The notes: a model not told the origin generated them from the letters alone. DNA of 64,000 nucleotides from Nitrospirota bacterium (GCA_030684575.1 JAUXVD010000016.1:62001-126000), one strand, 5' to 3'; counted from the first letter of the stretch, positions 7,421 through 64,000 are shown. A program made the numbers and translations.

Positions 7421-7900
7421 ATGGTTGATATCCCAAGCATTACAGCTGCCATTAGTGGACTCAGGACAGCGGCAGAGATTGCGAAGGCCATGAAGGGCCT
7501 TCACGACTTGGCGGATATCCAAACCAAGGTCATTGATCTTCAGAGTGCCATTCTTGATGCCCAAACCAGTGCACTTACGGCGCAGTCTGACCAATTCACC
7601 TTGATGCAAAAGACTCGTGAGCTTGAAGAAGAAGTTAGCCGCGTTAAGGCATGGGATGAGACAAAACAGCACTACCAACTGATAACCCCTTGGGCTGGAT
7701 GTCATGTCTATGCGTTGAAGGAATCCCAAAAGGGAACCGAGCCTCCGCATTGGATATGTCCCCAGTGTTACGAGGATGGCAGAAAATCGATCTTGCATAA
7801 TTCTCAAAAGCACGACCGTAGGACTCAGTGGATAATCAAGTGTCACCATTGCTCCTTCGATAGTGATAGACAAAATGAGGCTGAACGCGCATACGTTTAA
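7421..7900 (+). CDS. Accessory protein with coiled coil and C-terminal zinc ribbon
   Basis: 159 residues from the ATG at 7421, chosen because AAGGAG lies just upstream; an open frame extends further back without such a site. Residues 1-85 are helical (IPSITAAISGLRTAAEIAKA, then a heptad-like LMQKTRELEEEVSRV). The C-terminus has CPQCYEDG and CHHC pairs, a likely zinc ribbon. Small proteins of this pattern are common in phage-like and other accessory regions. Its base composition is visibly richer in A+T than the neighbours, which suggests transfer. Function unknown. Confidence 0.75.
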   Translation: MVDIPSITAAISGLRTAAEIAKAMKGLHDLADIQTKVIDLQSAILDAQTSALTAQSDQFTLMQKTRELEEEVSRVKAWDETKQHYQLITPWAGCHVYALKESQKGTEPPHWICPQCYEDGRKSILHNSQKHDRRTQWIIKCHHCSFDSDRQNEAERAYV

Positions 7901-8241
7901 AGCCAGGCGTGGCCGTCCTCAGTCACTTCTCATCCTCGCTGCCTTATTTTGCTACCACGCTGCTATCAGGACAGGACAAGCCTGCCCCATCAGCACCAAC
8001 CGTGTTTGTCTTCTCAGTTGTGGTTTTTTGGGGGCTTAGATTGTCTCAGGTAGGACGAGGGGTAATTCGCAAACCGCAGGTCAGGTCCTATCAGCTCAAA
8101 TATATCTTCATCCCCCCCATCGATGTCGCTGATTTCAGTAGCGCTGCCTGTGTTTTGAGCGGGCTAGCAGGCGTGACAAAACTTGGGCATGCGAAAATTA
8201 CGGTTGAAATATTTCATGTGGCATGGAGGCCTTAATCGCCT
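7901..8241. other. Stretch without a supported gene
   Basis: A 108-codon plus-strand frame (7909-8235) is open, but it lacks a ribosome-binding site and does not read like a protein. I see no RNA gene or repeat here. The composition resembles the preceding accessory gene, so it is probably part of the same acquired segment. Confidence 0.4.
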
Positions 8242-8364
8242 CAGGATGCTCAAAAAGGCCGTCCAGCAAGGCCGCAGCGAGTGAAGGGCCGAGGCGTACC
8301 CGTAGGGTACGTTGAGGATCTGAATGATGCGAGAACGACGCTGGCGGGCTTTTTCAGCAGCCTG
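8242..8364. repeat. CAGGATGCTGAAAA-type palindromic element, copy 3 (left copy of a direct repeat)
   Basis: The ends CAGGATGCTCAAAAAGGCC and GGGCTTTTTCAGCAGCCTG are inverted complements, and the centre holds CGTACCCGTAGGGTACG, a seven-base perfect palindrome. It is nearly identical to the copy at 9309 and in the same orientation, so the higBA genes are bracketed by direct repeats. Confidence 0.85.
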
Positions 8365-8369
8365 CTGAG

Positions 8370-8432
8370 TTAGACGATCCGTCGCAGGATAGGGATTTGC
8401 TGCACCAGCGCGACAGCAGGAAGCGTTAAGGC
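8370..8432 (-). pseudogene. 3' remnant of an acyltransferase gene
   Basis: Read on the minus strand this gives TIALTLPAVALVQQIPILRRIV and a stop. That closely matches the last 21 residues of the intact acyltransferase at 9450 (TIVIAFTAVALMQRIPILRRVV in that gene). The stop codon is the same distance from the adjoining palindromic element in both places. Similarity fades beyond about 8432. It is the end of a duplicated or recombined paralogue. Confidence 0.75.
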
Positions 8433-8466
8433 AATGGTGGCGTCGCAGTGTGAAGCAGGTGCTGGA

Positions 8467-8937
8467 CTAGGGTACTCGCACTTTCCGCCTCTTGGTCGTG
8501 AGGGATTTGGTTGTGCTGGTGGCGAGGGGCATAAATACCGAGGGCGAGACGCCGAACCGTGCGGCGAGGTGGGCGATTTGGCGGACGTTCAGGTCGCGTT
8601 TGCCCGACAAGATTTCTGACAGCACGCCCTGGCTGCCGATCTCGGGCAGATCGGATTGCGCGAGCTCATGATCCTCCATCAGGCTGCGCAGAATTTCAGG
8701 CCCGGAGGCGTCGGGTGTGGCGACATGGGCGTCCTCGTATGCCTCAATAGAGAGGGCCAAGGTTTCAGCCAAGTCGGCGAGGGCATGGGTGTCCTGTTGG
8801 CCGATTTCGTCGAGAATGTCATCAAGGACGTCTACGGCTCGGTCGTATTCCGTCTTGGTATGCAACGGGCCCAAGGGAATCTGTTGCCGAATGCGGCGGT
8901 AGTCGGCGTTCACGTCATGGATGTATTTGGCGAGCAT
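8467..8937 (-). CDS. higA: HigA-type antitoxin
   Basis: 156 residues. The C-terminal half is a helix-turn-helix of the Xre/HigA type (SLMEDHELAQSDLPEIGSQG, then ISGKR-like SEILSGKRDLNVRQIAHLA and FGVSPSVFM). The N-terminal half is acidic and helical, as in HigA proteins with a toxin-binding extension. It begins two bases after the HigB stop with GGAGG upstream, so it is coupled to the toxin gene. Expected role: neutralise HigB and repress the operon together with it. Confidence 0.85.
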   Translation of the reverse strand: MLAKYIHDVNADYRRIRQQIPLGPLHTKTEYDRAVDVLDDILDEIGQQDTHALADLAETLALSIEAYEDAHVATPDASGPEILRSLMEDHELAQSDLPEIGSQGVLSEILSGKRDLNVRQIAHLAARFGVSPSVFMPLATSTTKSLTTKRRKVRVP

Positions 8938-8939
8938 AA

Positions 8940-9227
8940 TCAGGTCCTCCAGGCGTCTCGGTCGTACTCGGCATGTGTGAGCACGTGCCGGAGATAGACT
9001 TTTTTCCGGTTGTAATGAATGGCCGCTATCAGTCGGAACTTGTTGCCCCCGATGTTAAAGACGGTCATCCCGCCCACTTGATCGGCGGAGGGGAATGTCT
9101 TCCGTAGACCGGTGAATGAGGCATAGTCGGTCTTCCGAACAATGGCGTACCAGGCGTTCAGCGGAGCCCGTGCATCCGGATGCGCTCGCGCGAACTCCGC
9201 CAGTCGTTTTCGCGTGATTATATGCAC
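8940..9227 (-). CDS. higB: HigB-type mRNA interferase toxin
   Basis: 95 residues from the GTG at 9227 (MHIITRKRLAEFARAHPDA), the start that matches the family; a TTG six codons upstream would lengthen it slightly. Family hallmarks are PLNAWY, VFNIGGNKFRLIAAIHYN and VYLRHVLTHAEYD, the RelE-fold toxins that cut mRNA on ribosomes. The toxin gene precedes the antitoxin gene, the usual order for higBA. The pair sits between two direct repeats, consistent with mobility. Confidence 0.88.
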   Translation of the reverse strand: MHIITRKRLAEFARAHPDARAPLNAWYAIVRKTDYASFTGLRKTFPSADQVGGMTVFNIGGNKFRLIAAIHYNRKKVYLRHVLTHAEYDRDAWRT

Positions 9228-54123: not shown

Positions 54124-54693
54124 GGGCACACTCCTGGTCACAGATTGCCGATTGCCATGGCGTCTGGACCCATTGTCCATCACGAAAGACCCGTTTGTCG
54201 AATGCGTTACAGAGGATGCCGAACTGCGAAGGGGCTCAGGATGCCTTGTCGGTGTGCCAATCTCAGCTTGCACGAACGGCTACCAGTAACTTTCATAGCT
54301 GTCTCCTGAAGAACTCCGGTGTGACCTAAGAGTTATGAAGCATTTTTGTGACGGGAGCGGAAATCACCTAAAATTGTACAGGGCTCTCTGCCTCGCCAAG
54401 GCTACCAACGTAAGGCCAGAGGCCTCTGCCATTGCATCGCATGGGGCCAATCAGGTCACAGTGTCACCGGTCGCGACATCATTTCCTCCGCCAGATAATC
54501 AGCGGATTCACAATCAAACCCTGTGAGTTTGGCTGGCTCGGGGGTGGCATCTTGTTTGCTTACGTGAAATTGCGTCGGCCGCTAGGCCTAGCATCTCATA
54601 TTGACGCGGAGCTCCAGCTCTTGGATACTATCGGCTCTTCTTGCCTCTAGCGTAGCGTGCCTCGAACCTGGGTTACAGGAAAGGAGCAACGTT
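54124..54693. other. Long leader region upstream of the exported-protein array
   Basis: No gene is supported in these 570 bases. It separates the PNPOx-like gene (minus) from the array (plus) and carries the candidate promoter near 54601. Small open frames on both strands have no ribosome-binding sites. Confidence 0.4.
54601..54631 (+). promoter_or_regulatory. Candidate sigma-70-type promoter for the exported-protein array
   Basis: TTGACG (54601-54606) followed after 17 bases by GATACT (54624-54629) resembles -35 and -10 boxes. The first gene of the array starts about 60 bases further on. Support is by sequence similarity only. Confidence 0.35.
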
Positions 54694-55614
54694 ATGACGC
54701 GAACCCCTCTTCGCTGCAATCCCGGCCCCTTCTTGGTTATCTTCATGCTGTTCGTCGCGTCAGCGCTTACTCACGCGGCTCAACCTAACTATGATCCGCC
54801 GCAACCCTCGGCAGAGTTCGGGACGCCGGAGGCCACGGCGAAGATCGCGGCGAAGGCCGAGTTTTTGGACGTCGTCGGCGTCAAGGTCGGCATGCCGCTC
54901 AAAGATGCGGTGGAGGCGGTGAAGGCGCACAACGCGAAACTCAAACTGGAACCCCAGTTCAAGTTTGAGTTTGAAGCGCTGCCCGGAGTCGTCATGACGC
55001 CGGTGATGGCCTCTACAAAAAATGTGAGCACGGCCTCCGATCCAGGGATTGAGTATTTCGGCCTCCACCTCACCTATGCGCCAAATGAGGTGTTTGTCTA
55101 TGGCGTATGGCGCGATTTCTGGTTCGATAAGCCGGGGAGTCAGCCGCCGGTCGACACCATTTTGGCCGGCATGAGAAAGAAGTACGGTCCGGAGAGCGTG
55201 AGGGACGAGAGCACGCTTCTGCTCTGGGTCTTCGATGCCCAAAAGCAGCAAGTGATGGGAGCGAAGGCTAAGGAAATCTGGCAGAAATGCGGGAACCAGT
55301 GGATGGCGGGAGCGGACTACCCCCGAGGCAATATCTCGCAGCAGGTGACGAAAGGGTATTACAGCGTCAGCGACGGGAGGGACGAGCACGGCGGGATCTG
55401 CCATTCGCACTCGCTCGTACAGGCAAGATATGCGGCCGACACCCCGCGAGGAGCGTCGCAGCCGCTCATCATGAACGTGAAGGTCAGCGCCTATAATCGT
55501 CAATTGGAGGCGAGCGGCGTCACGGCCACGAATGTCCTCTTGACGCGCGAGGCCAACAAGTTAGCGGAGAAGCGGAAAGAGGAGGCCGGAAAGCGTGCCG
55601 GTCCGAAGTTCTGA
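54694..55614 (+). CDS. Exported protein, tandem family member 1
   Basis: 306 residues from ATG 54694 (AAAGGAG upstream). A signal peptide ends near LTHAAQ. The rest is the family domain: FGTPEATAKIAAKAEFLDVV, GVKVGMPLKDAVEAVKAHNA, LPGVVMTPVM, LTYAPNEVFVYGVWRD, then a repeat-wide YGPESV block, GGICHSHSLVQARY, and the C-terminal helix ending in GPKF. I do not recognise this family. Related copies occur at 55723, 57223, 60243 and, more divergent, 61226, so it is the first of five paralogues. Confidence 0.75.
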   Translation: MTRTPLRCNPGPFLVIFMLFVASALTHAAQPNYDPPQPSAEFGTPEATAKIAAKAEFLDVVGVKVGMPLKDAVEAVKAHNAKLKLEPQFKFEFEALPGVVMTPVMASTKNVSTASDPGIEYFGLHLTYAPNEVFVYGVWRDFWFDKPGSQPPVDTILAGMRKKYGPESVRDESTLLLWVFDAQKQQVMGAKAKEIWQKCGNQWMAGADYPRGNISQQVTKGYYSVSDGRDEHGGICHSHSLVQARYAADTPRGASQPLIMNVKVSAYNRQLEASGVTATNVLLTREANKLAEKRKEEAGKRAGPKF

Positions 55615-55722
55615 CGCATGGGCAAGGAGTAAGAGCTCGAACCAAGGAGAGTGATCAAGTAGACGGAGATTTCTACGACTCTTCATCGGACAGCACATTC
55701 ACCGTTCACAAGGAGACTTGCT

Positions 55723-57180
55723 ATGCGACCTCGTTGGCTCACGGCATGTATCGGTGTGGCGTCCATTTTCCTTGCCGAGTTCGGGACTCCCGTTACAGCC
55801 CCCGTCATCGCGGCGGACAATGCCGGTGGCGATATCATGCCCATCTGTACGATGCCCAAGTGTCTCAATCCTCGCGTCACCACCAAATCCGGTATCGGTA
55901 CCGCCAATGCCACTGCAGAAGCCAAGGTCTCCCCCGAAGACGCCGCCAAATGGTGCGCCACGTACAAACCGATGGACAAACTGTGCGTGAAAGAACAAGT
56001 CCGATCCGGCTGGGTCGGCTTTAGGGGGCTCTATCGTGCCAGCGCGGACTGTGTGGCTGGACGCATGACTCCGATCGATGGCAACACCTACATCTATATA
56101 GGTGTGTGGGAAGACGGGCCAGGAAAGGGACGACCGAAATTTACCACGACGAATCGCCAATTCCCCCACACGAAATGGGATGAGACGGGGGTGGCGATCC
56201 ATCCGTCAGGAGAAATTACAGGATGGGGTGGCGGGAGCCCCAATCTTGCGGCGCAGTGGGAAGTGCTGTGCGCCGGCGCTCCCGCGCCTGCGACGGCCGC
56301 TGCGAGCACGCCTCAGCCGGCGGCTCAGGCGCAGCCGGGCGTACAGATGCGGCCTAACGAACTCCAGCAATTTCCTACCGAAACGCAGCTCCAGACGGCC
56401 GACTTCGGGACGCCGGAAGCGACGGCGAAGATCGCGGCGAAGGCCGGATTCGTGGATGTCGTCGGGGTCAAGCTCGGCATGCCGCTCAAAGCCGCGCTAG
56501 ATGCGCTAAGAGCTCATAACTCAAACTTTGTCATGGAACCCGTGACCATACCACCGTACGAGGCGCTACCCGGCGTGGCCATGAATCCGTTACTCACCTC
56601 CAAGAAAAACACGAACACGCCTTCGAGTCAGGAGAAGGAGTATGTCGGCTTACTCGTTACGATGGCGCCGAGCGAGCCCTTCGTCTGGGGCATGTGGCGT
56701 GAAGTATCGTACGAGAAGGAAGAGAGCCGGCCGACCATCGAAACCGTTCAGGCTGGACTCAGAAAGAAGTATGGTCAGGAGAGCGTGAAGGATGTCAGCA
56801 ACAGACTCATTTGGATGTACGATGCCCAGGGGCAGCAAGTGATGAAAGCCAAGGCCGACGAGATCCTCACGAAATGCGTGTCTGTCTGGATGGTGGGCCT
56901 GGGCCAACAGGCGCAACTGCATGCGGGCTATTTCAATCGGCAGATCGTGGGAGGGTACTTCAATTCGAGTTACGGGAAAGACTCTTTCAACGGACTCTGC
57001 CAGTCATACTCGCTTGTGCAGGCTGAGTATACGGGCCGATCCGTGATGGTCAGTGCCTCCAATCGTCAGTTAGAGGTGAGCGGTGTGACAGCCTCGCATA
57101 CGCTGTTGATGCGTGAGGCGACCAAGCTCGCGGACAAGCGGAAGGGAGACGCCGAGAAACGCGAGGTGCCAAAGTTCTGA
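55723..57180 (+). CDS. Exported protein, tandem family member 2, with an extra N-terminal domain
   Basis: 485 residues, AAGGAG before the ATG. After a signal peptide, residues about 35-185 form an additional domain with six cysteines (CTMPKC, WCATY, KLCVK, DCVAG, LCAG) that the paralogues lack. A Pro/Ala/Gln linker (about 186-222) leads to the family domain: DFGTPEATAKIAAKAGFVDV, VKLGMPLKAALDALRAHNSN, LPGVAMNPLL, KKYGQESVKDVSNRLIWMYD, GLCQSYSLVQAEY, and a C-terminal helix ending in VPKF. Function unknown. Confidence 0.75.
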   Translation: MRPRWLTACIGVASIFLAEFGTPVTAPVIAADNAGGDIMPICTMPKCLNPRVTTKSGIGTANATAEAKVSPEDAAKWCATYKPMDKLCVKEQVRSGWVGFRGLYRASADCVAGRMTPIDGNTYIYIGVWEDGPGKGRPKFTTTNRQFPHTKWDETGVAIHPSGEITGWGGGSPNLAAQWEVLCAGAPAPATAAASTPQPAAQAQPGVQMRPNELQQFPTETQLQTADFGTPEATAKIAAKAGFVDVVGVKLGMPLKAALDALRAHNSNFVMEPVTIPPYEALPGVAMNPLLTSKKNTNTPSSQEKEYVGLLVTMAPSEPFVWGMWREVSYEKEESRPTIETVQAGLRKKYGQESVKDVSNRLIWMYDAQGQQVMKAKADEILTKCVSVWMVGLGQQAQLHAGYFNRQIVGGYFNSSYGKDSFNGLCQSYSLVQAEYTGRSVMVSASNRQLEVSGVTASHTLLMREATKLADKRKGDAEKREVPKF

Positions 57181-57222
57181 TGCACGCACATGAAGCCGGA
57201 CTTTCAACGAAGGAGACCCATC

Positions 57223-58368
57223 ATGAAGAAGAGGACCGTCCTGAAGGCCGCAGCATGGGCACTGATCATGCTGGTGTCTACCTGGGGAGCTCCAAGCGTC
57301 TCGACAGGAGAAGACTTTCTCGAGAAGCTGAAGAAGGCCGCTGAGCAGGCGGCACAACAACGGCAACGCCAGCAACAGCAGCAACAAACTGGTCAACCGC
57401 GCCAATCGCAAGCCCCACAACAGCAGCCTCAGGCTCAACAGTCCTCACAGAATAAGCAGCAACCGCGGGAGCAACCAGGAAGAAGTGTCAGCTCGTATCC
57501 CAACGAAAAACCACTACCTTCTCCGGACTTCGGCACTCCGGAAGGCACGGCGAAAATTGCCGCTAAAGCCGGGTTCCTGGATGTCGTGGGCATCAAGCTC
57601 GGCATACCGGTTAAGGAAGCTGTGGAAGCGTTGAAGGCGCACGACGCGAATTTCAAGGTGCAGCCTATTACTTTGCGTGAGTATGAGGCGCTGCCCGGCC
57701 TGGTCATGACCCCGATTCTCCTCGCACCGAACCCTGGTGGTCCTAGCGCCGTGAGCGGAGATGATTTCACCCTCTTCATCACCTATGCGCCGAACGAAGC
57801 GTTTCTTTGGGGCCTCTCACGCAATCTCGGGTTTGGCAGGGAAGACAGCCGGCCGACTGTCGACAATACATTGGCCGGATTGAGAAAAAAGTATGGTCCC
57901 GAAAGTGCTAAGCAAGTGGGTGCCAATCGGCTCATTTGGATCTACGATGTCCAAGGGCAACAGGTGATGGGCGCCAAGGCCATGGATATCTACAACCTGT
58001 GCTCTCAGACCTGGTCCGTGAAACTCGGAGGAGATGCCGCCGGCGGCAATCGTCCCGACCACAACAGTCAGTTCTCCAACTCGTACTTCGATCAACAATT
58101 GAAAGGCACGTACTACTATGGAACGGGTGGCTATGGCTCCCCGGGCGGGGTTTGTCACGCGCATTCGGTGTTGGACGTCTACTATACACATGCCACTCCG
58201 GCAGGTTCGACGGCGGATTTGATGAGTAGCATGACCATGGGCGCCTTCAATCGACAATTAGAGGGGAGCGGCATCACGGCAGCGCATACTCACTTGATGG
58301 CTGCGGTGGATAAATTGAATGAGAAACGAGGAGAGGAAGAAGGAAAGCGCGGCGGGATGAAGTTCTGA
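57223..58368 (+). CDS. Exported protein, tandem family member 3
   Basis: 381 residues from ATG 57223 (AAGGAG upstream). The signal peptide (LKAAAWALIMLVSTWGAPSV) is followed by a Gln-rich stretch (about 40-95) that is low-complexity and probably extended. The family domain starts near 105: DFGTPEGTAKIAAKAGFLDV, IKLGIPVKEAVEALKAHDAN, LPGLVMTPIL, ITYAPNEAFLWGLSRNLGFG, KKYGPESAKQVGANRLIWIY, GGVCHAHSVLDVYY, ending in GMKF. Function unknown. Confidence 0.75.
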   Translation: MKKRTVLKAAAWALIMLVSTWGAPSVSTGEDFLEKLKKAAEQAAQQRQRQQQQQQTGQPRQSQAPQQQPQAQQSSQNKQQPREQPGRSVSSYPNEKPLPSPDFGTPEGTAKIAAKAGFLDVVGIKLGIPVKEAVEALKAHDANFKVQPITLREYEALPGLVMTPILLAPNPGGPSAVSGDDFTLFITYAPNEAFLWGLSRNLGFGREDSRPTVDNTLAGLRKKYGPESAKQVGANRLIWIYDVQGQQVMGAKAMDIYNLCSQTWSVKLGGDAAGGNRPDHNSQFSNSYFDQQLKGTYYYGTGGYGSPGGVCHAHSVLDVYYTHATPAGSTADLMSSMTMGAFNRQLEGSGITAAHTHLMAAVDKLNEKRGEEEGKRGGMKF

Positions 58369-58436
58369 GGCAACGCCACTATCCAGAGGCAAGGCTGTCC
58401 GATGATAGGCGGCGAAACCGCGAAGGGAAGTGTGAC

Positions 58437-59585
58437 ATGAAGCAAATCTTCAAAGTGACGCTCGTATTTGCGTCGATCTTGACGGCCGCGTTCTCGACGG
58501 ATGCGATGGCCGCCAGAAAACAGAGCCCCACCGATCAACTCAGCCAGGCACTCAAGCAGGCCGGGCTTAAGGAAGTGGAAAATGAAGTCGTGCGTCAACT
58601 CGGTCAGGCCATCGAGGTCGGGGCGCCGTTGCGGCTCGATCACCGCACCGCCTTTCCGCCGACGACCGTCCCCATCGACAACTTCCATCCCAAGAAGCTG
58701 GAGTTCACTCCAGAAACCATGAACCAGCCGCTCGAGCCCGGCGACTACACGCTCGATGTAATCGGACATTGTACGAGGTGGTCGTTGCACTACCCTGGCC
58801 GTGGTCTGGCATACAAGTTGGCCCGCCTGCAGGGACGGCAGGCCGAGGTGATCAGCGAGCTGTACCATCGCGGAACGCAGCAGGGTATACCGCCTTTTGG
58901 GCTCCACGCGATGGCTTGGCGTATCCAAGGCGGCGTGCCGCTCAAACATTGGAGGTCTCGTGAGCAAGAGCTGGTCCATCAGCTTATTCCGGAATACGAG
59001 AGTTCATTGCAAGGGGATTATCTGGAGCAAATCCGAGAGATATACAGCAAGGCGGCTACGTTGGGGAAACTGCCCCGCTATGAAACCATGCTGAGCCGGA
59101 TGGGCCCCGTTGGGGAGACTGTGATCGAGCTGCAACGAGCTCGAAAGATCCTCGCCAATAAGACGCTGGCTGCAGAGCGGATGCCTGAACTCCTCTACGG
59201 TCGCCCAAGAGATGGATTGCCGCGAACGCTCACCGGCGGACCGAATGATCCCCCTTCGTCCTGGTCCGAAATCGCGCCCGGTGTATTCGCCCGGCTGACG
59301 ATCATACGGGGAAACCTCGGTCGAAATGTGCTGGATCTCCGGGTCGCGCCACAGGACCGCATCACCCCGGTGTCCCATCATCCCAGAAACACGTTCGCCA
59401 TCTTGCCTGTGGCACTGATGGCTCAAATGTCACCGGAGAGATCGTGGACTTTCGAGGATTTGATGAAATATATCAGCGGACTGATCGGGTATCCAGAAGG
59501 GCGCCCCGCTCAGGCCTTGATTCTCGCGCCCAAAGTTTTCTGCACGGGGATAAACGATTGTGGCTTCATCGGCATCCGCGGATGA
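58437..59585 (+). CDS. Exported protein of unknown function within the array
   Basis: 382 residues. A signal peptide (VTLVFASILTAAFSTDAMA) marks export. It is unrelated to the tandem family. Visible segments are GDYTLDVIGHCTRWSLHYPG, LARLQGRQAEVISELYHRGT and GLHAMAWRIQGGVPLKHW in the first half, and a C-terminal SWSEIAPGVFARLTIIRGNL with a terminal CTGINDCGFIG. The pattern feels like a conserved domain, but I cannot name it. It lies 68 bases after member 3 on the same strand. Confidence 0.7.
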   Translation: MKQIFKVTLVFASILTAAFSTDAMAARKQSPTDQLSQALKQAGLKEVENEVVRQLGQAIEVGAPLRLDHRTAFPPTTVPIDNFHPKKLEFTPETMNQPLEPGDYTLDVIGHCTRWSLHYPGRGLAYKLARLQGRQAEVISELYHRGTQQGIPPFGLHAMAWRIQGGVPLKHWRSREQELVHQLIPEYESSLQGDYLEQIREIYSKAATLGKLPRYETMLSRMGPVGETVIELQRARKILANKTLAAERMPELLYGRPRDGLPRTLTGGPNDPPSSWSEIAPGVFARLTIIRGNLGRNVLDLRVAPQDRITPVSHHPRNTFAILPVALMAQMSPERSWTFEDLMKYISGLIGYPEGRPAQALILAPKVFCTGINDCGFIGIRG

Positions 59586-59668
59586 CGACGAAATTAAGGC
59601 ATGCAGTTTTGGGGGAGCCGTAGGTACCACGGTACAGGTGAGTTGAAAGGTAGGACTGGGATCTTAAT

Positions 59669-60169
59669 ATGATGGCTTTCCGATCTCTCGCATTGATTGT
59701 AGCGATTGGCATGGTGGGTGTCTTCCCGAGTGCTGGGGTTGCGCAGAGTGATGAAGGTACCGCGCGTGCCGAGATCGCCAAGTGGGCCGGGAGTGACGAC
59801 ACCGATGCGTTTCTACGTCAGCCTGCGGTGCGTGCGGAACTGCAGAAGCTCCTTGGTCCGGAGTTGAAACATCTCCTGCACAACCTGAACGTGAGAGGCT
59901 CGGTGGAGCTGATCGGCTGGACCCTGACAGTCAGCGGCAACGCGCCGCACCAGGGCACCGAGGAAGAAGCGATCATGTGCGTCGTGCCAGGCACCAGTAT
60001 GGTGGAGGCTGCCATCTTATCGGCGGGCACCGTCACGGTCTACACGCGCGCGGAACAATACGAGTACACAAACCGATGCATCAAGGATTGGATCACGCTC
60101 GCCAATTCCGGCCATGCCGATAGAATGCAACAGCCGGCGAATGTGCGAGTGGTCCCACCCGCACGTTGA
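59669..60169 (+). CDS. Exported Ivy-like protein (possible lysozyme-inhibitor fold)
   Basis: 166 residues with a signal peptide (LALIVAIGMVGVFPSAGVAQ). The mature part resembles the Ivy family of C-type lysozyme inhibitors: AVRAELQKLLGPELKHLLHN, GSVELIGWTLTVSGNAPHQG, EEEAIMCV and VEAAILSAGTVTVY. In Ivy the loop is a disulfide-bounded CxPHxC; here it is NAPHQG without cysteines, so classic inhibition may be lost. Assignment is by motif only. Confidence 0.5.
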   Translation: MMAFRSLALIVAIGMVGVFPSAGVAQSDEGTARAEIAKWAGSDDTDAFLRQPAVRAELQKLLGPELKHLLHNLNVRGSVELIGWTLTVSGNAPHQGTEEEAIMCVVPGTSMVEAAILSAGTVTVYTRAEQYEYTNRCIKDWITLANSGHADRMQQPANVRVVPPAR

Positions 60170-60242
60170 AGCTCGCCGTACGAGTAGGGAAGGACAAGTG
60201 ACTGACATTTCAGCGCGGTTCACCTTTTACCGGGAGACTATT

Positions 60243-61187
60243 ATGCCTCTGAGGATTTCAGTAGTGGGTGCGGCAATTGTCGGTGTTGCGTTGGTTCTTG
60301 GATGGATGCAGCCGGCTTCGGCTGCCGATCAATTCCAATCGGGCGCCGATTTGCTGGGCACGCCGCCGCCTCAGCCGTCCGGGCCTCCGCCGAACACCGG
60401 CACGCCGGAGGAGACGGCGAAGCTCGCCACCGCAGCCGGTAAGTATGACATCGCCGGAATGAAGCTCGGCATGCCGCTCAAGGAAGCCATGCAGACGCTC
60501 AAGGCGCACAATCCCAAGCTGCAGATGAAAAAGGACACGATTAAATATGATGTGCTGGGTGGCGAACTGCTCTACGGCCTCACGTTCACGAGCCCGGAGG
60601 AACGGTTTATCTTCCAATTGACCATGCCGCCCAATCCCATTGTCGTCTCCAAACTCGCCCGCACCCTGACCTTCACAAAGGAGACGGCGCCGACCCAGCA
60701 GGCGCTCGTCGAAGGTTTGATCAAGAAATACGGCCAGCCCAGTTATGACAATGGTCCCAATCAATTTAACGATACCAATCTCCGTATCATCAACTGGCTG
60801 GACGATGCCGATGGCAGCCGGATGAAAGATGAGACCGGTCAGCTATGCACGACAAGTAACTCGTTTACGGGCATACCGTATCGTTCGGCCGACGCTGCGC
60901 AAATACAACCGTCTGGAGTGGCGATGCTCCTCGAGTCGCGTTTTTCCATCGGCCAGGGAGATGTCTGTGAGACACGCCGGATGGTCCAGGCCAGGCTCCA
61001 GCGATGCTGCCAGCGCCAGAACATCTTGGCGGGGCCGGATCTCGTCGGGGCGCTCGTCGTGCTCATGGGCGATGGCCCGCTGGACGAACAAGCCACCGGG
61101 GCGACGCATCAGTTGTTGGTCAATGCCGTCAAGGCGAAGGATGCGAAAGAAAAAGAAGGTGCACAGAAAAATAAGCCCAAACTCTAA
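60243..61187 (+). CDS. Exported protein, tandem family member 4
   Basis: 314 residues from ATG 60243 (GGGAGA upstream); upstream in-frame codons overlap the previous gene. Signal peptide (AAIVGVALVLGWMQPASA). Family domain: NTGTPEETAKLATAAGKYDI, MKLGMPLKEAMQTLKAHNPK, then KKYGQPSYDNGPNQF and CCQRQN. It has diverged in the middle (no LPGVVMTP block), and ends NKPKL. Function unknown. Confidence 0.72.
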   Translation: MPLRISVVGAAIVGVALVLGWMQPASAADQFQSGADLLGTPPPQPSGPPPNTGTPEETAKLATAAGKYDIAGMKLGMPLKEAMQTLKAHNPKLQMKKDTIKYDVLGGELLYGLTFTSPEERFIFQLTMPPNPIVVSKLARTLTFTKETAPTQQALVEGLIKKYGQPSYDNGPNQFNDTNLRIINWLDDADGSRMKDETGQLCTTSNSFTGIPYRSADAAQIQPSGVAMLLESRFSIGQGDVCETRRMVQARLQRCCQRQNILAGPDLVGALVVLMGDGPLDEQATGATHQLLVNAVKAKDAKEKEGAQKNKPKL

Positions 61188-61225
61188 GCGAGGCGTCCTC
61201 GATCGATTTCATGGACAAGGAGGTG

Positions 61226-61993
61226 ATGGTGAATATTGTGATTCTAGCGCTCGCGTGGTTGCTCTTTCTGGGTGGCGGCGTTGGGAATGCGGCAGAACCG
61301 AAACTGCCCGATACCTTGGGCATCGCCCTCGGTATGCCGGTCAAAGATGCGGTGCAACGGATGAAGGAGCTCGGCCTGGCGATCCACGCGGCTGAGACGA
61401 ACCCTTCGAATATTCTGGAGAAGCCGCTGTTGCATGAACTCGCTGGCAGCAAGGCCATGATGGGAAGCATGTCGGGAGAATCGTTGAGGGTCAGTATCGC
61501 GACGCCGCCTCATTCGCAGGTGGTGTGGCAGGTCTTCCGGACCTCGCAATTTCCTGAACAGGCGCGCCCTGCCAGCGCCACCATCCTGACATCGTTACGG
61601 GAAAAGTATGGCCCAGAAATCTGGAAGGAACTGGATGGAGCCGGTCACCCACGGGTGGTCCGCTGGCTGTTCGACGAACAGGGCCGCGCGTTGACTGGAG
61701 AAGCCAATGCGATGCTCGCCCGGGGCTGTAACTCCTACAGTCCGAACAACGGGACGTTCAATACACCAGCGGGACAGCGTGATCCCTGCTACGGGATCGT
61801 GCATCTCGAAGCGAAGATCAACGCGTTGTCCAAGCCTGGAGTCGCGGATACGCTGGAGATCAAGCTGATGCATGGGCCTCTCGCTAGGACGTTCTTCCCC
61901 GCGACAGAAGCCTGGATTCAAGAACAGCAAGCCAAGGCGGCTAACCGGGAAGTGGAAAAGGCGAAGCAGCAGGGGGTGAAGCCCGCTTTGTGA
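61226..61993 (+). CDS. Exported protein, tandem family member 5 (divergent)
   Basis: About 255 residues; AAGGAGG lies only two bases before ATG 61226, so GTG 61229 may be the real start. Signal peptide (IVILALAWLLFLGGGVGNAA). The family core is reduced to LGIALGMPVKDAVQRMKELG, REKYGPEIWKEL, VRWLFDEQGRAL and CYGIVHLEAKINAL. The amino-terminal FGTPEATAK block is absent. Most divergent paralogue; ends GVKPAL. Confidence 0.68.
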   Translation: MVNIVILALAWLLFLGGGVGNAAEPKLPDTLGIALGMPVKDAVQRMKELGLAIHAAETNPSNILEKPLLHELAGSKAMMGSMSGESLRVSIATPPHSQVVWQVFRTSQFPEQARPASATILTSLREKYGPEIWKELDGAGHPRVVRWLFDEQGRALTGEANAMLARGCNSYSPNNGTFNTPAGQRDPCYGIVHLEAKINALSKPGVADTLEIKLMHGPLARTFFPATEAWIQEQQAKAANREVEKAKQQGVKPAL

Positions 61994-62036
61994 TAGTGAG
62001 ACGTGCTGCTGTTCGACCATTGGGGAGGGCCTGTTT

Positions 62037-62735
62037 ATGCGCTGGTGGATCGTGTTCATGTTCCTGCTGATTCCCATGCCTCCGTCTGTTCAGGCGGATC
62101 AGCCGCAGGTCGATATTGTGAAGATGCCAGCCCAAGTCGGGACGCGGTACTTTGACCCGAAGCGGCCGCCACGCGAAAGGCCGCCGCTGGAGGGGCCTGA
62201 GGAAGCAGTTTGCGCGGGCGATTTTCTCTCTGATGCTTCGGTCGGTGCGCAGGCGATGCAGACGGATGCGACGCATGCGAAGGGGACGGTCAACCGGATC
62301 AAAGTGACGCTGCAGCTCAATATGACGATCTGGCTGCCGAACAATCCGCAGAAGTGGACCGTGGAACACGAAGAGGGGCACCGCCAGATTTCGGAATATT
62401 ACTATCAACACGCCGAACCGATCGCCCGCCGCGTCGCGGAGTCATACCTCGGCAAAACCTTCGATATCAGCGGCAGGGACTTGCGCCGGGCCTTGAGTGC
62501 CGCGGTGGGAAAGATCTCAGAGGAAATTACCAACGAATACAACCGTCAAATGCCAATCGAGACGACCCAGGCTCGCTACGACGAGATTACCGAGCACAGT
62601 CGTAAGGACATTCCGGTGCCGGATGCCGTCGCGCAGGCTCTGAAGGAAACCTATCCGGGCCAGTCCTGGGCTACCCCAGCTATGGCACCCCCCTCGGTAA
62701 CCATACCAGAACCACGCGCTGTGCCAAAGTTCTAA
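62037..62735 (+). CDS. Exported protein with HEEGH motif (possible metallopeptidase)
   Basis: 232 residues with a signal peptide (WWIVFMFLLIPMPPSVQA). VEHEEGHRQISEYYYQHAEP contains an HExxH motif (H-E-E-G-H) in a helix, a zinc-protease signature, similar to secreted proteins of the DUF922 type. The upstream strand RIKVTLQLNMTIWLPNNPQK would be an edge strand. Unlike the family paralogues it has no FGTPE domain, yet its C-terminus ends in VPKF as theirs does. Activity is untested. Confidence 0.65.
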   Translation: MRWWIVFMFLLIPMPPSVQADQPQVDIVKMPAQVGTRYFDPKRPPRERPPLEGPEEAVCAGDFLSDASVGAQAMQTDATHAKGTVNRIKVTLQLNMTIWLPNNPQKWTVEHEEGHRQISEYYYQHAEPIARRVAESYLGKTFDISGRDLRRALSAAVGKISEEITNEYNRQMPIETTQARYDEITEHSRKDIPVPDAVAQALKETYPGQSWATPAMAPPSVTIPEPRAVPKF

Positions 62736-62783
62736 GCCGACGATTGGGTTGCTCACCCGTGCTTCCTTATAAAGGAGGCGGTC

Positions 62784-63120
62784 ATGACTGTCACCAGGAT
62801 ATTTGCCGCGATGCTTTGCGTAGCCCTGCTCTGGACATCCGGAGCAGGGGCACAGAAGTGAAACCGCTGTGGTCCGCGCGATTACTTCATTGCTCGCTCA
62901 GACTGCCCCAGCGCTGCAGCACATGCCGGCAAACACATGGTGCATGCTTGTAAATTGTGGACCAGCGAGGCCGTGCCGACTCGGTTGGTTCGCAGGCTCG
63001 AAGACAAGACCTGCTCGATGAAGGCAGTTGGTCAGCCTCCGCGCTTCATGATCGAGACATATTTTCAATCCTTCGGAGATTCAGGCCGGCATCCGCCGAT
63101 GCGTCCAAGCCGGATGCATC
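62784..63120 (+). pseudogene. Signal-peptide-only gene with in-frame TGA, then Cys-rich frame
   Basis: AAAGGAGG precedes an ATG that encodes a signal peptide (IFAAMLCVALLWTSGAGAQ) and stops at TGA 62859-62861 after 25 codons. The same frame stays open beyond it and reads NRCGPRDYFIARSDCPSAAA, then HACKLWT and KTCSMK, with evenly spaced cysteines. This looks like a small exported Cys-rich gene broken by one base change (for example TGC or TGG to TGA). I see no SECIS-like hairpin to support selenocysteine. The 3' end is uncertain. Confidence 0.5.
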
Positions 63121-64000
63121 TTAGGTGCCCATGTCGTACTTTTTTAGCTTGGCGAGGAGGGTCTTGTAATCGATGTGAAGGGTCTTGGCCGCCTGGGTCT
63201 TGTTGCCGGCGCTGGCTTCGAGGACGCGTTGGATATGGAGGCGTTCGATCTCGTCCAGGGATAAGTGCAATTGATCTCCCGACTGCAGCCTGTTTCTGGT
63301 TTTCGGCAACAGCGCGAGCACGTCTTCTTGACCGATTGGGCCCGTTCCCTGGCTCATCAGCACGATACCCTCAATCACATTGCGGAGCTCACGTATGTTG
63401 CCGGGCCAACTGTAGGTAGTCAGCGTCTGTATGGCCTCTGGCGAGAGTGTCCGTGTCGTAGTTCCCGGGATGCGCAGTGTCGAGAGGATGTGCTCGGCAA
63501 GTTGTGGTAGATCCTCCTTCCGTTCGCGGAGTGGAGGGACGCGGAGCGTGACGGTGTTGATGCGGTAGAGCAGGTCGTCCCGGAATCGGCCTTGGTGCAC
63601 GAGTTCCTGGATGTCCTGGTTCGTGGCTCCGACCACACGGACATTGGCCTGGAGCGTACGAGTACTGCCGACGGGGCGGTATTCGCCACGATCTAGGAAG
63701 CGTAACAGGCTCACTTGCATCGGGCCGGGCATCTCGCCCAGTTCATCCAAAAAGAGTGTGCCTCCTTCGGCGGCGGCAATGAGCCCTGGCTTTGCCGCGT
63801 TCGCGCCGGTAAACGAGCCTTTTTCATGGCCGAAGAGTTCGCTCTCCAACAGGTCACGGCTGACGGCGCCGCAGTTGATGGCGATGAAGGGTCCGCTGGC
63901 GCGCCGACTCAAGTCGTGGAGTAGCCGCGCCGCGATTTCTTTGCCCGACCCGGTTTCTCCCTGAATGAGCACGGTTGCGTTGGATGGAGCCACCTGCGCG
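63121..64000 (-). CDS. Sigma-54-dependent transcriptional activator, C-terminal part
   Basis: The frame is open to the window's right edge, so the N-terminal region is missing. Walker A is GETGSGKE, followed by the GAFTGA-type loop as GSFTGA, Walker [14 protein letters not shown], and sensor motifs ([33 protein letters not shown]). A Fis-type DNA-binding helix-turn-helix closes it ([34 protein letters not shown]). It binds upstream enhancers and remodels sigma-54 holoenzyme. Convergent with the exported array, so not its obvious local regulator. Confidence 0.92.

Follow-up and report, generated by a model that had tools for sequence, protein, structure and literature searches.

Bacteria of the genus Nitrospira, which inhabit flocs and biofilms, rank as major oxidisers of nitrite and, to our knowledge, little is known of the components that they carry at the surface or outside the envelope. 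What, then, is a group of paralogous exported proteins encoded side by side in a Nitrospira genome, and how might it be controlled? The stretch of DNA analysed as a whole, referred to here as the window, is 64,000 nt long (G000:C16:62001-126000) and lies within a genome of 3.79 Mb. A first-pass annotation had described in it a tandem array of five exported paralogues of an unrecognised family, expanded by duplication with domain gain and mixed with an Ivy-like and a HEEGH protein, and had proposed a role such as defence or surface binding. The features discussed are collected in Table 1.

Table 1. Features of the array and its surroundings, by position in the window. Loci in other genomes are named L022 (in G002), L023 (G009), L024 (G024), L063 (G236) and L119 (G003).
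Feature	Position	Strand	Evidence
Variable 8.9-kb island, pyridoxamine-oxidase-like gene to NtrC-type response regulator	54227..63136	.	Empty site in congeners
Conserved block CAGGTCACAGTGT, candidate upstream activator site	54452..54464	+	Identical in L022, 3 mismatches in L024
Sigma-54 -24/-12 element TGGCATCTTGTTTGCT	54545..54560	+	Cross-species conservation
Sigma-70-like promoter TTGACG-N17-GATACT	54601..54629	+	Conserved in window, L022, L023, L024
P1, exported core-family protein, 306 aa	54694..55614	+	BLASTP, genome profile search; mature part modelled, pLDDT 81.9
P2, six-Cys domain, linker and core, 485 aa	55723..57180	+	BLASTP, alignment
Six-Cys domain of P2, whole-gene fusion	55837..56277	+	63% identity to stand-alone gene
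P3, core-family protein with Gln-rich linker (about 57334-57484)	57223..58368	+	BLASTP
U1, exported, unrelated to core family, 382 aa	58437..59585	+	No library match
Exported protein earlier labelled Ivy-like, 166 aa	59669..60169	+	No Pfam match; L022 orthologue
P4, core-family protein, 314 aa	60243..61187	+	BLASTP; orthologues in G009 and G236
P5, minimal core-family protein	61226..61993	+	BLASTP; orthologues in G009 and G024
HEEGH protein, 3'-truncated relative to 427-aa homologue	62037..62735	+	G005 homologue
Relic of lost HEEGH C-terminal part	62946..63074	+	51% identity to G005 protein residues 377-418
NtrC/AtoC-type sigma-54 response regulator, continues past window end, histidine kinase next	63121..64000	-	Domains of G009 orthologue

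The five proteins (P1 to P5) share a core of approximately 230-280 aa, and their homology is far above chance. All-against-all BLASTP gives 53% identity between P1 and P2 (E about 1e-91) and 46% between P1 and P3, the P1-P3 group ranging from 46 to 53%, and E-values of about 4e-21 and 3e-10 for P1 against P4 and P5, respectively. A profile built from the five rows recovers exactly P1 to P5 from the whole 3.79-Mb genome, a sixth row (E 0.03) being P2's own N-terminus and not an extra member. Together with their signal-peptide-like starts, these searches bear out the presence of five exported paralogues at this place.

Across 14 homologues no variation is seen at R, KYG, W and D, and very little in a DxxG..LGMP turn (at its LGM glycine) or at a C-terminal Cys; a second Cys is common. 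Two of the motifs that had been read as common to all five proteins do not hold throughout; the FGTPE..TAK block becomes TGTPEETAK in P4 and is missing from P5, and KYGxES, exact in P1-P3 only, reads KYGQPS in P4 and KYGPEI in P5. The invariant residues are mainly of turn and core types (G, P, KYG, W, D, R), and because those of the 14 homologues include no His/Ser/Asp catalytic set, the core proteins are probably non-catalytic.

None of the libraries searched contains this family. The core domain of P1-P5 matches nothing in Pfam or NCBIfam above the curated cut-off, the rows below it being at chance level, confined to P3 and P5, and in P3 derived mostly from the Gln-rich linker; PHROGs and PADLOC models give no match to the core, and a profile search of PDB sequences gives no meaningful one. 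The check for a known family with a housekeeping role also matched nothing, so the earlier description as unrecognised stands and, judged by these searches, this is an unannotated exported family. Its signature (D..G...G[MQ], KYG, W, and a C-terminal helix and tail) is found in single proteins of other Nitrospiraceae (L028 and L029), with hmmsearch E-values of 2e-8 and 6e-11. Two proteins from alphaproteobacterial plasmids, WP_199202327 (Mesorhizobium) and WP_129392837 (Sphingosinicella), align to the core with an hhalign probability of 81-82% and share the signal-peptide-like start, D..G...G[MQ], KYGP, W, and the C-terminal helix and tail, although they are single genes outside any array and annotated as hypothetical; this likeness is suggestive of homology.

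An AlphaFold2 model of the P1 core (pLDDT 81.9, pTM 0.81) predicts an antiparallel sheet and helices, with a long helix at the C-terminus; for full-length P2, the first 193 residues of the model, which include the six-Cys domain, are unreliable (pLDDT <50). No known fold could be assigned to the core from the families that these comparisons listed: Foldseek against PDB and BFVD returned nothing at E<=0.001, and the rows listed by the VIA fold comparison lie inside the noise, a best Z of 7-8 being typical for models that have no true match. The top solved structure for both models is 6xtd_B, the Serratia RhsI1 immunity protein (PDB 6XTD), with 122-123 residues aligned at an rmsd of 4.8-5.3 Å and 8% identity and a Z of 5.6-6.0, below that noise level. 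The DUF4309 protein YjgB (4ygt; Z 5.7 in one model) and the beta-lactamase inhibitory protein BLIP (Z about 3) also fall within the noise, and no sequence similarity between them and the core was found.

These rows nevertheless invite the reading that a BLIP/RhsI-like core neutralises toxins or enzymes secreted or injected by competitors. Such an array of immunity proteins or inhibitors would explain both the paralogues and their variable presence, and the island-like distribution and apparent exchange of P5 between lineages, described below, would suit it. Beside the sub-noise Z values, however, it has to contend with the lack of any toxin-like gene among the eight genes of the array, and with the export of all array proteins, whereas many immunity proteins are cytoplasmic. 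No Rhs effector linked to the array was seen. The eight proteins match 0 PADLOC families and PHROGs is empty for them, and dN/dS values of 0.13-0.25 for P1-P5 give no sign of diversifying selection. The defence role first proposed is not supported by these findings, and we regard immunity as an unlikely account of the array.

The domain gain put forward in the first-pass annotation is, by contrast, well founded for P2, as its six-Cys domain is an independent module. A stand-alone six-Cys gene in the same genome (G000:C12:108459-108896) encodes a protein 63% identical to the P2 domain, further stand-alone six-Cys proteins occur in G163 and G170, and the P2 orthologue of G002 is devoid of the domain. 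The alignment of P2 to the stand-alone protein starts in the signal region and continues to the latter's end, CAGAPAPA, beyond which the ancestral P2 linker VQxRPxxxQQ...ETQLQTADFGTP resumes. P2 therefore arose when a whole gene, that of a stand-alone secreted protein, was fused in front and replaced P2's own signal peptide. The Gln-rich linker of P3 is common to the P3 orthologue of G002. In a gene tree, P1, P2 and P3 of the window and of G002 form separate supported pairs and the protein from G236, which represents another genus, groups with P4; the duplications must accordingly be old and precede the split of the species compared.

The paralogues belong to a set of eight co-directional genes (54694-62735) with intergenic gaps of 41-108 bp, in which no terminator-like sites were found between genes on the + strand. 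All eight have a signal-peptide-like start, an export call made from N-termini read by eye and with a crude script, and an RBS-like sequence ahead. As far as sequence can tell, the eight look like one operon of exported, non-lipoprotein products. The five paralogues are clustered within it, and are tandem in a looser sense than first described, since two unrelated exported genes separate P1-P2-P3 from P4-P5, which the HEEGH gene follows.

The first of these two, U1, has no match in Pfam, NCBIfam, PHROGs or PADLOC; homologues 25-28% identical are found on cyanobacterial plasmids (Gloeothece, Nostoc), one of them two genes from an M48 metallopeptidase. For the second, the label Ivy-like had to be dropped, as it has no Pfam match of any kind, the Ivy family included, at E<=1; it has an orthologue in L022 and fragments in G014, G006 and G024. 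The HEEGH protein is present as described, albeit in a 3'-truncated form, and over residues 1-217 it is 72% identical to its G005 homologue. In the latter the motif is HAEGH, so that the Glu on which catalysis by an HExxH peptidase depends has not been kept; no Pfam peptidase match was obtained either, and identification as a metallopeptidase is not supported. The new end of the truncated protein, VPKF, resembles the tails of the array proteins, and 13 nt there are identical to the end of P2. The C-termini of P1-P5 and the HEEGH protein conform to [PMA][KA][FL], a tail restricted to this locus among the predicted exported proteins of a 464-kb genome sample. Since the HEEGH gene that bears this tail is truncated, the likeness may be due to chance or recombination, and a C-terminal sorting tail was set aside.

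How might the operon be switched on? Upstream of P1 lies a -24/-12 element whose counterparts are TGGCATCTCGCTTGCT in L022 and TGGCACTCTGCTTGCT, a perfect match, in L024; it is thus kept in three species with GG/GC fixed and flanks poorly conserved. Sites of equal quality number 12 in the 464 kb of genome sample, which gives a roughly 1% chance of one in the 420-bp upstream region, conservation uncounted. Counts at two mismatches within the window are at chance level, and the site is credible because of its position and cross-species conservation only. The block CAGGTCACAGTGT is found once in the window and adjoining 20 kb, and its position points to a putative role as upstream activator site. 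In L023 the sigma-70-like promoter stands in front of P4, and G009, which retains P4-P5 and the response regulator, has lost the sigma-54 element; none was found ahead of the P4-like gene of G236. In the window genome the sequence features expected of a sigma-54 operon are seen, namely a -24/-12 element in which GG and GC are invariant, RpoN (encoded at G000:C5:19028-19510) and a sigma-54 enhancer-binding regulator.

That regulator and a HAMP histidine kinase are convergent with the array, downstream of it. The orthologue of the response regulator in G009 contains Sigma54_activat, Response_reg and HTH_8, the window protein carries the GSFTGA loop, and the adjoining kinase has HisKA, HATPase_c and HAMP. 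The array adjoins the same pair in the window, G009 and G236, the last with different flanks, and from this arrangement, although proximity does not amount to control, its transcription seems to be switched on by the neighbouring pair through sigma-54. The pair is also present in five genomes that have no island, and must therefore have other targets.

The sensor region of the kinase is weakly similar to the four-helix ligand-binding modules 4HB_MCP_1 and TarH, both below cut-off. This, and a neighbourhood conserved in two genera, could mean that the core proteins are accessories to signalling that bind the periplasmic sensor of the kinase and set its activity, much as CpxP sets that of CpxA. 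Five paralogues, however, exceed the needs of feedback and, with five genomes carrying the pair but not the array, we regard such a role as improbable.

A somewhat better, though still unlikely, alternative is that the products are structural proteins of an extracellular matrix or floc, regulated in the manner of RpoN-dependent PEP-CTERM proteins. In floc-forming bacteria, control of exported proteins by RpoN and a two-component system is documented (PMC9850573), and the PrsK/PrsR system of Aquincola and Zoogloea (PMC9850573) likewise couples exported proteins with a promoter for RpoN and a two-component system of the NtrC type; the Gln-rich linker of P3 and an OmpA/PA14 protein inside the G002 array would also fit. 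Unlike the proteins of that system, those of the array have no PEP-CTERM motif at their tails, the eight-gene array includes no polysaccharide genes, the response regulator scores 329.4 bits against the PrsR model (TIGR02915), below its cut-off of 502.6, and PrsK is absent among the histidine kinase matches listed.

The distribution of the array is patchy, with matches in 4/32 genomes and absence from most congeners. In G017, G021, G011, G001 and G003 the site is empty and the pyridoxamine-oxidase-like gene abuts the response regulator; for G017 and G021 the homologous stretch extends to 54226 of the window, an identical left breakpoint in both, and resumes from about 63137 with ~0.1-0.2 kb between, and G017 shares 97% of Tex residues with the window. 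The tblastn map of G003 shows both the pyridoxamine-oxidase-like gene and that of the histidine kinase in pieces (L119:5784-6360 and 7879-9192), perhaps owing to frameshifts or assembly errors. Copy number differs between relatives, a point that the first-pass annotation had raised for checking. The G002 array reads P1-P2-P3-'Ivy'-OmpA/PA14-P5b, that of G009 consists of P4-P5 only, and in G024 an intact P5 follows a deletion scar in which the P1 start, the 'Ivy' gene end and the P4 end are joined. Remnants are found in G005 (a P4 tail and a full-length HEEGH gene) and in G014 and G006 ('Ivy' pieces), and G236 has P4, a pseudogene, P5b and a HEEGH relic beside the same kinase-regulator pair. 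Given that order and linkage are shared with G236, ancestral presence and repeated loss is the simplest history.

Several observations accompany this survey. The OmpA/PA14 protein of G002 (L022:7124-8344) is of outer-membrane type, a 467-aa exported protein that belongs to no Pfam family lies beside the G236 array (L063:9108-10511), and the G024 scar (L024:8001-9176, RSF48) is in a locus on the opposite side of Tex. AmoC is absent from the window genome, G002 and G009, and present in G024, G005 and G014; multi-gene intact arrays thus occur in AmoC-free genomes and decayed ones in three AmoC-bearing genomes, too few to conclude on a comammox link. No relatives were found in viral contigs and P1 and P5 have no significant match in plasmids, so an origin in phage or plasmids was rejected.

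P5 appears to depart from vertical descent. Between G024 and G009 its dS is 0.21, against 0.82 for Tex, and nucleotide identity is 91% vs 83%; among G009, G024 and the window, dS for P5 is 0.21-0.29, against 0.81-0.82 for Tex of G024, suggesting that P5 was exchanged between lineages. The dN/dS of P1-P5 is 0.14-0.25 between the window and relatives, and 0.13 for P5 between G009 and G024, compared with 0.27 for the 'Ivy' gene; the values for Tex are 0.04-0.07 and those for the kinase-regulator pair 0.10-0.15. By these ratios the array proteins are constrained, somewhat relaxed and non-diversifying, and such purifying selection indicates that the genes are in use and argues against an arms race. 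It also tells against a further view, that the array is a lineage-specific expansion, dispensable because its function is weak or redundant, that is decaying across the genus. The scars and relics of G024, G005, G014 and G006, the pseudogenes of G236 and the absence from most congeners favour decay, yet intact copies are under selection, promoter elements are conserved and ancient orthologous groups persist across genera, and we think this view unlikely to be correct.

The reading that we prefer, and hold tentatively, is an operon under control of sigma-54 and the adjoining two-component system, whose exported core proteins are non-catalytic binding modules. The operon would be transcribed from tandem sigma-54 and sigma-70-like promoters ahead of P1, with the membrane-anchored sensor kinase and NtrC/AtoC-type regulator most likely activating the former on a signal from the envelope or outside. 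The core proteins would be secreted to the periplasm or beyond, where their most likely binding partners are one another, the envelope or some ligand from outside; the added six-Cys domain and Gln-rich linker would diversify what is presented. The regulatory half of this scheme is supported by sequence; that the regulator acts on this promoter, the final location, the binding role and its molecular target are what we infer. A comparative study ties sigma-54 control to the bacterial exterior (PMC3162934) and, with the work on floc formers cited above, makes a surface or floc role plausible by analogy; the core proteins may serve in surface binding. A wider and more doubtful proposition is that the family, unrelated in sequence to described ones, constitutes an interaction kit of Nitrospira, switched by a two-component system and sigma-54, and shaped by lineage exchange and whole-gene fusion.

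The operon, sigma-54 and the two-component system are ordinary known parts; the new element is the protein family, which comes with a regulatory handle, and the system itself is not of a new kind. For the exterior of Nitrospira, the locus supplies a defined unannotated family together with a predicted regulator and promoter and, as close relatives occur naturally with and without it, the role of this exported operon is directly testable.
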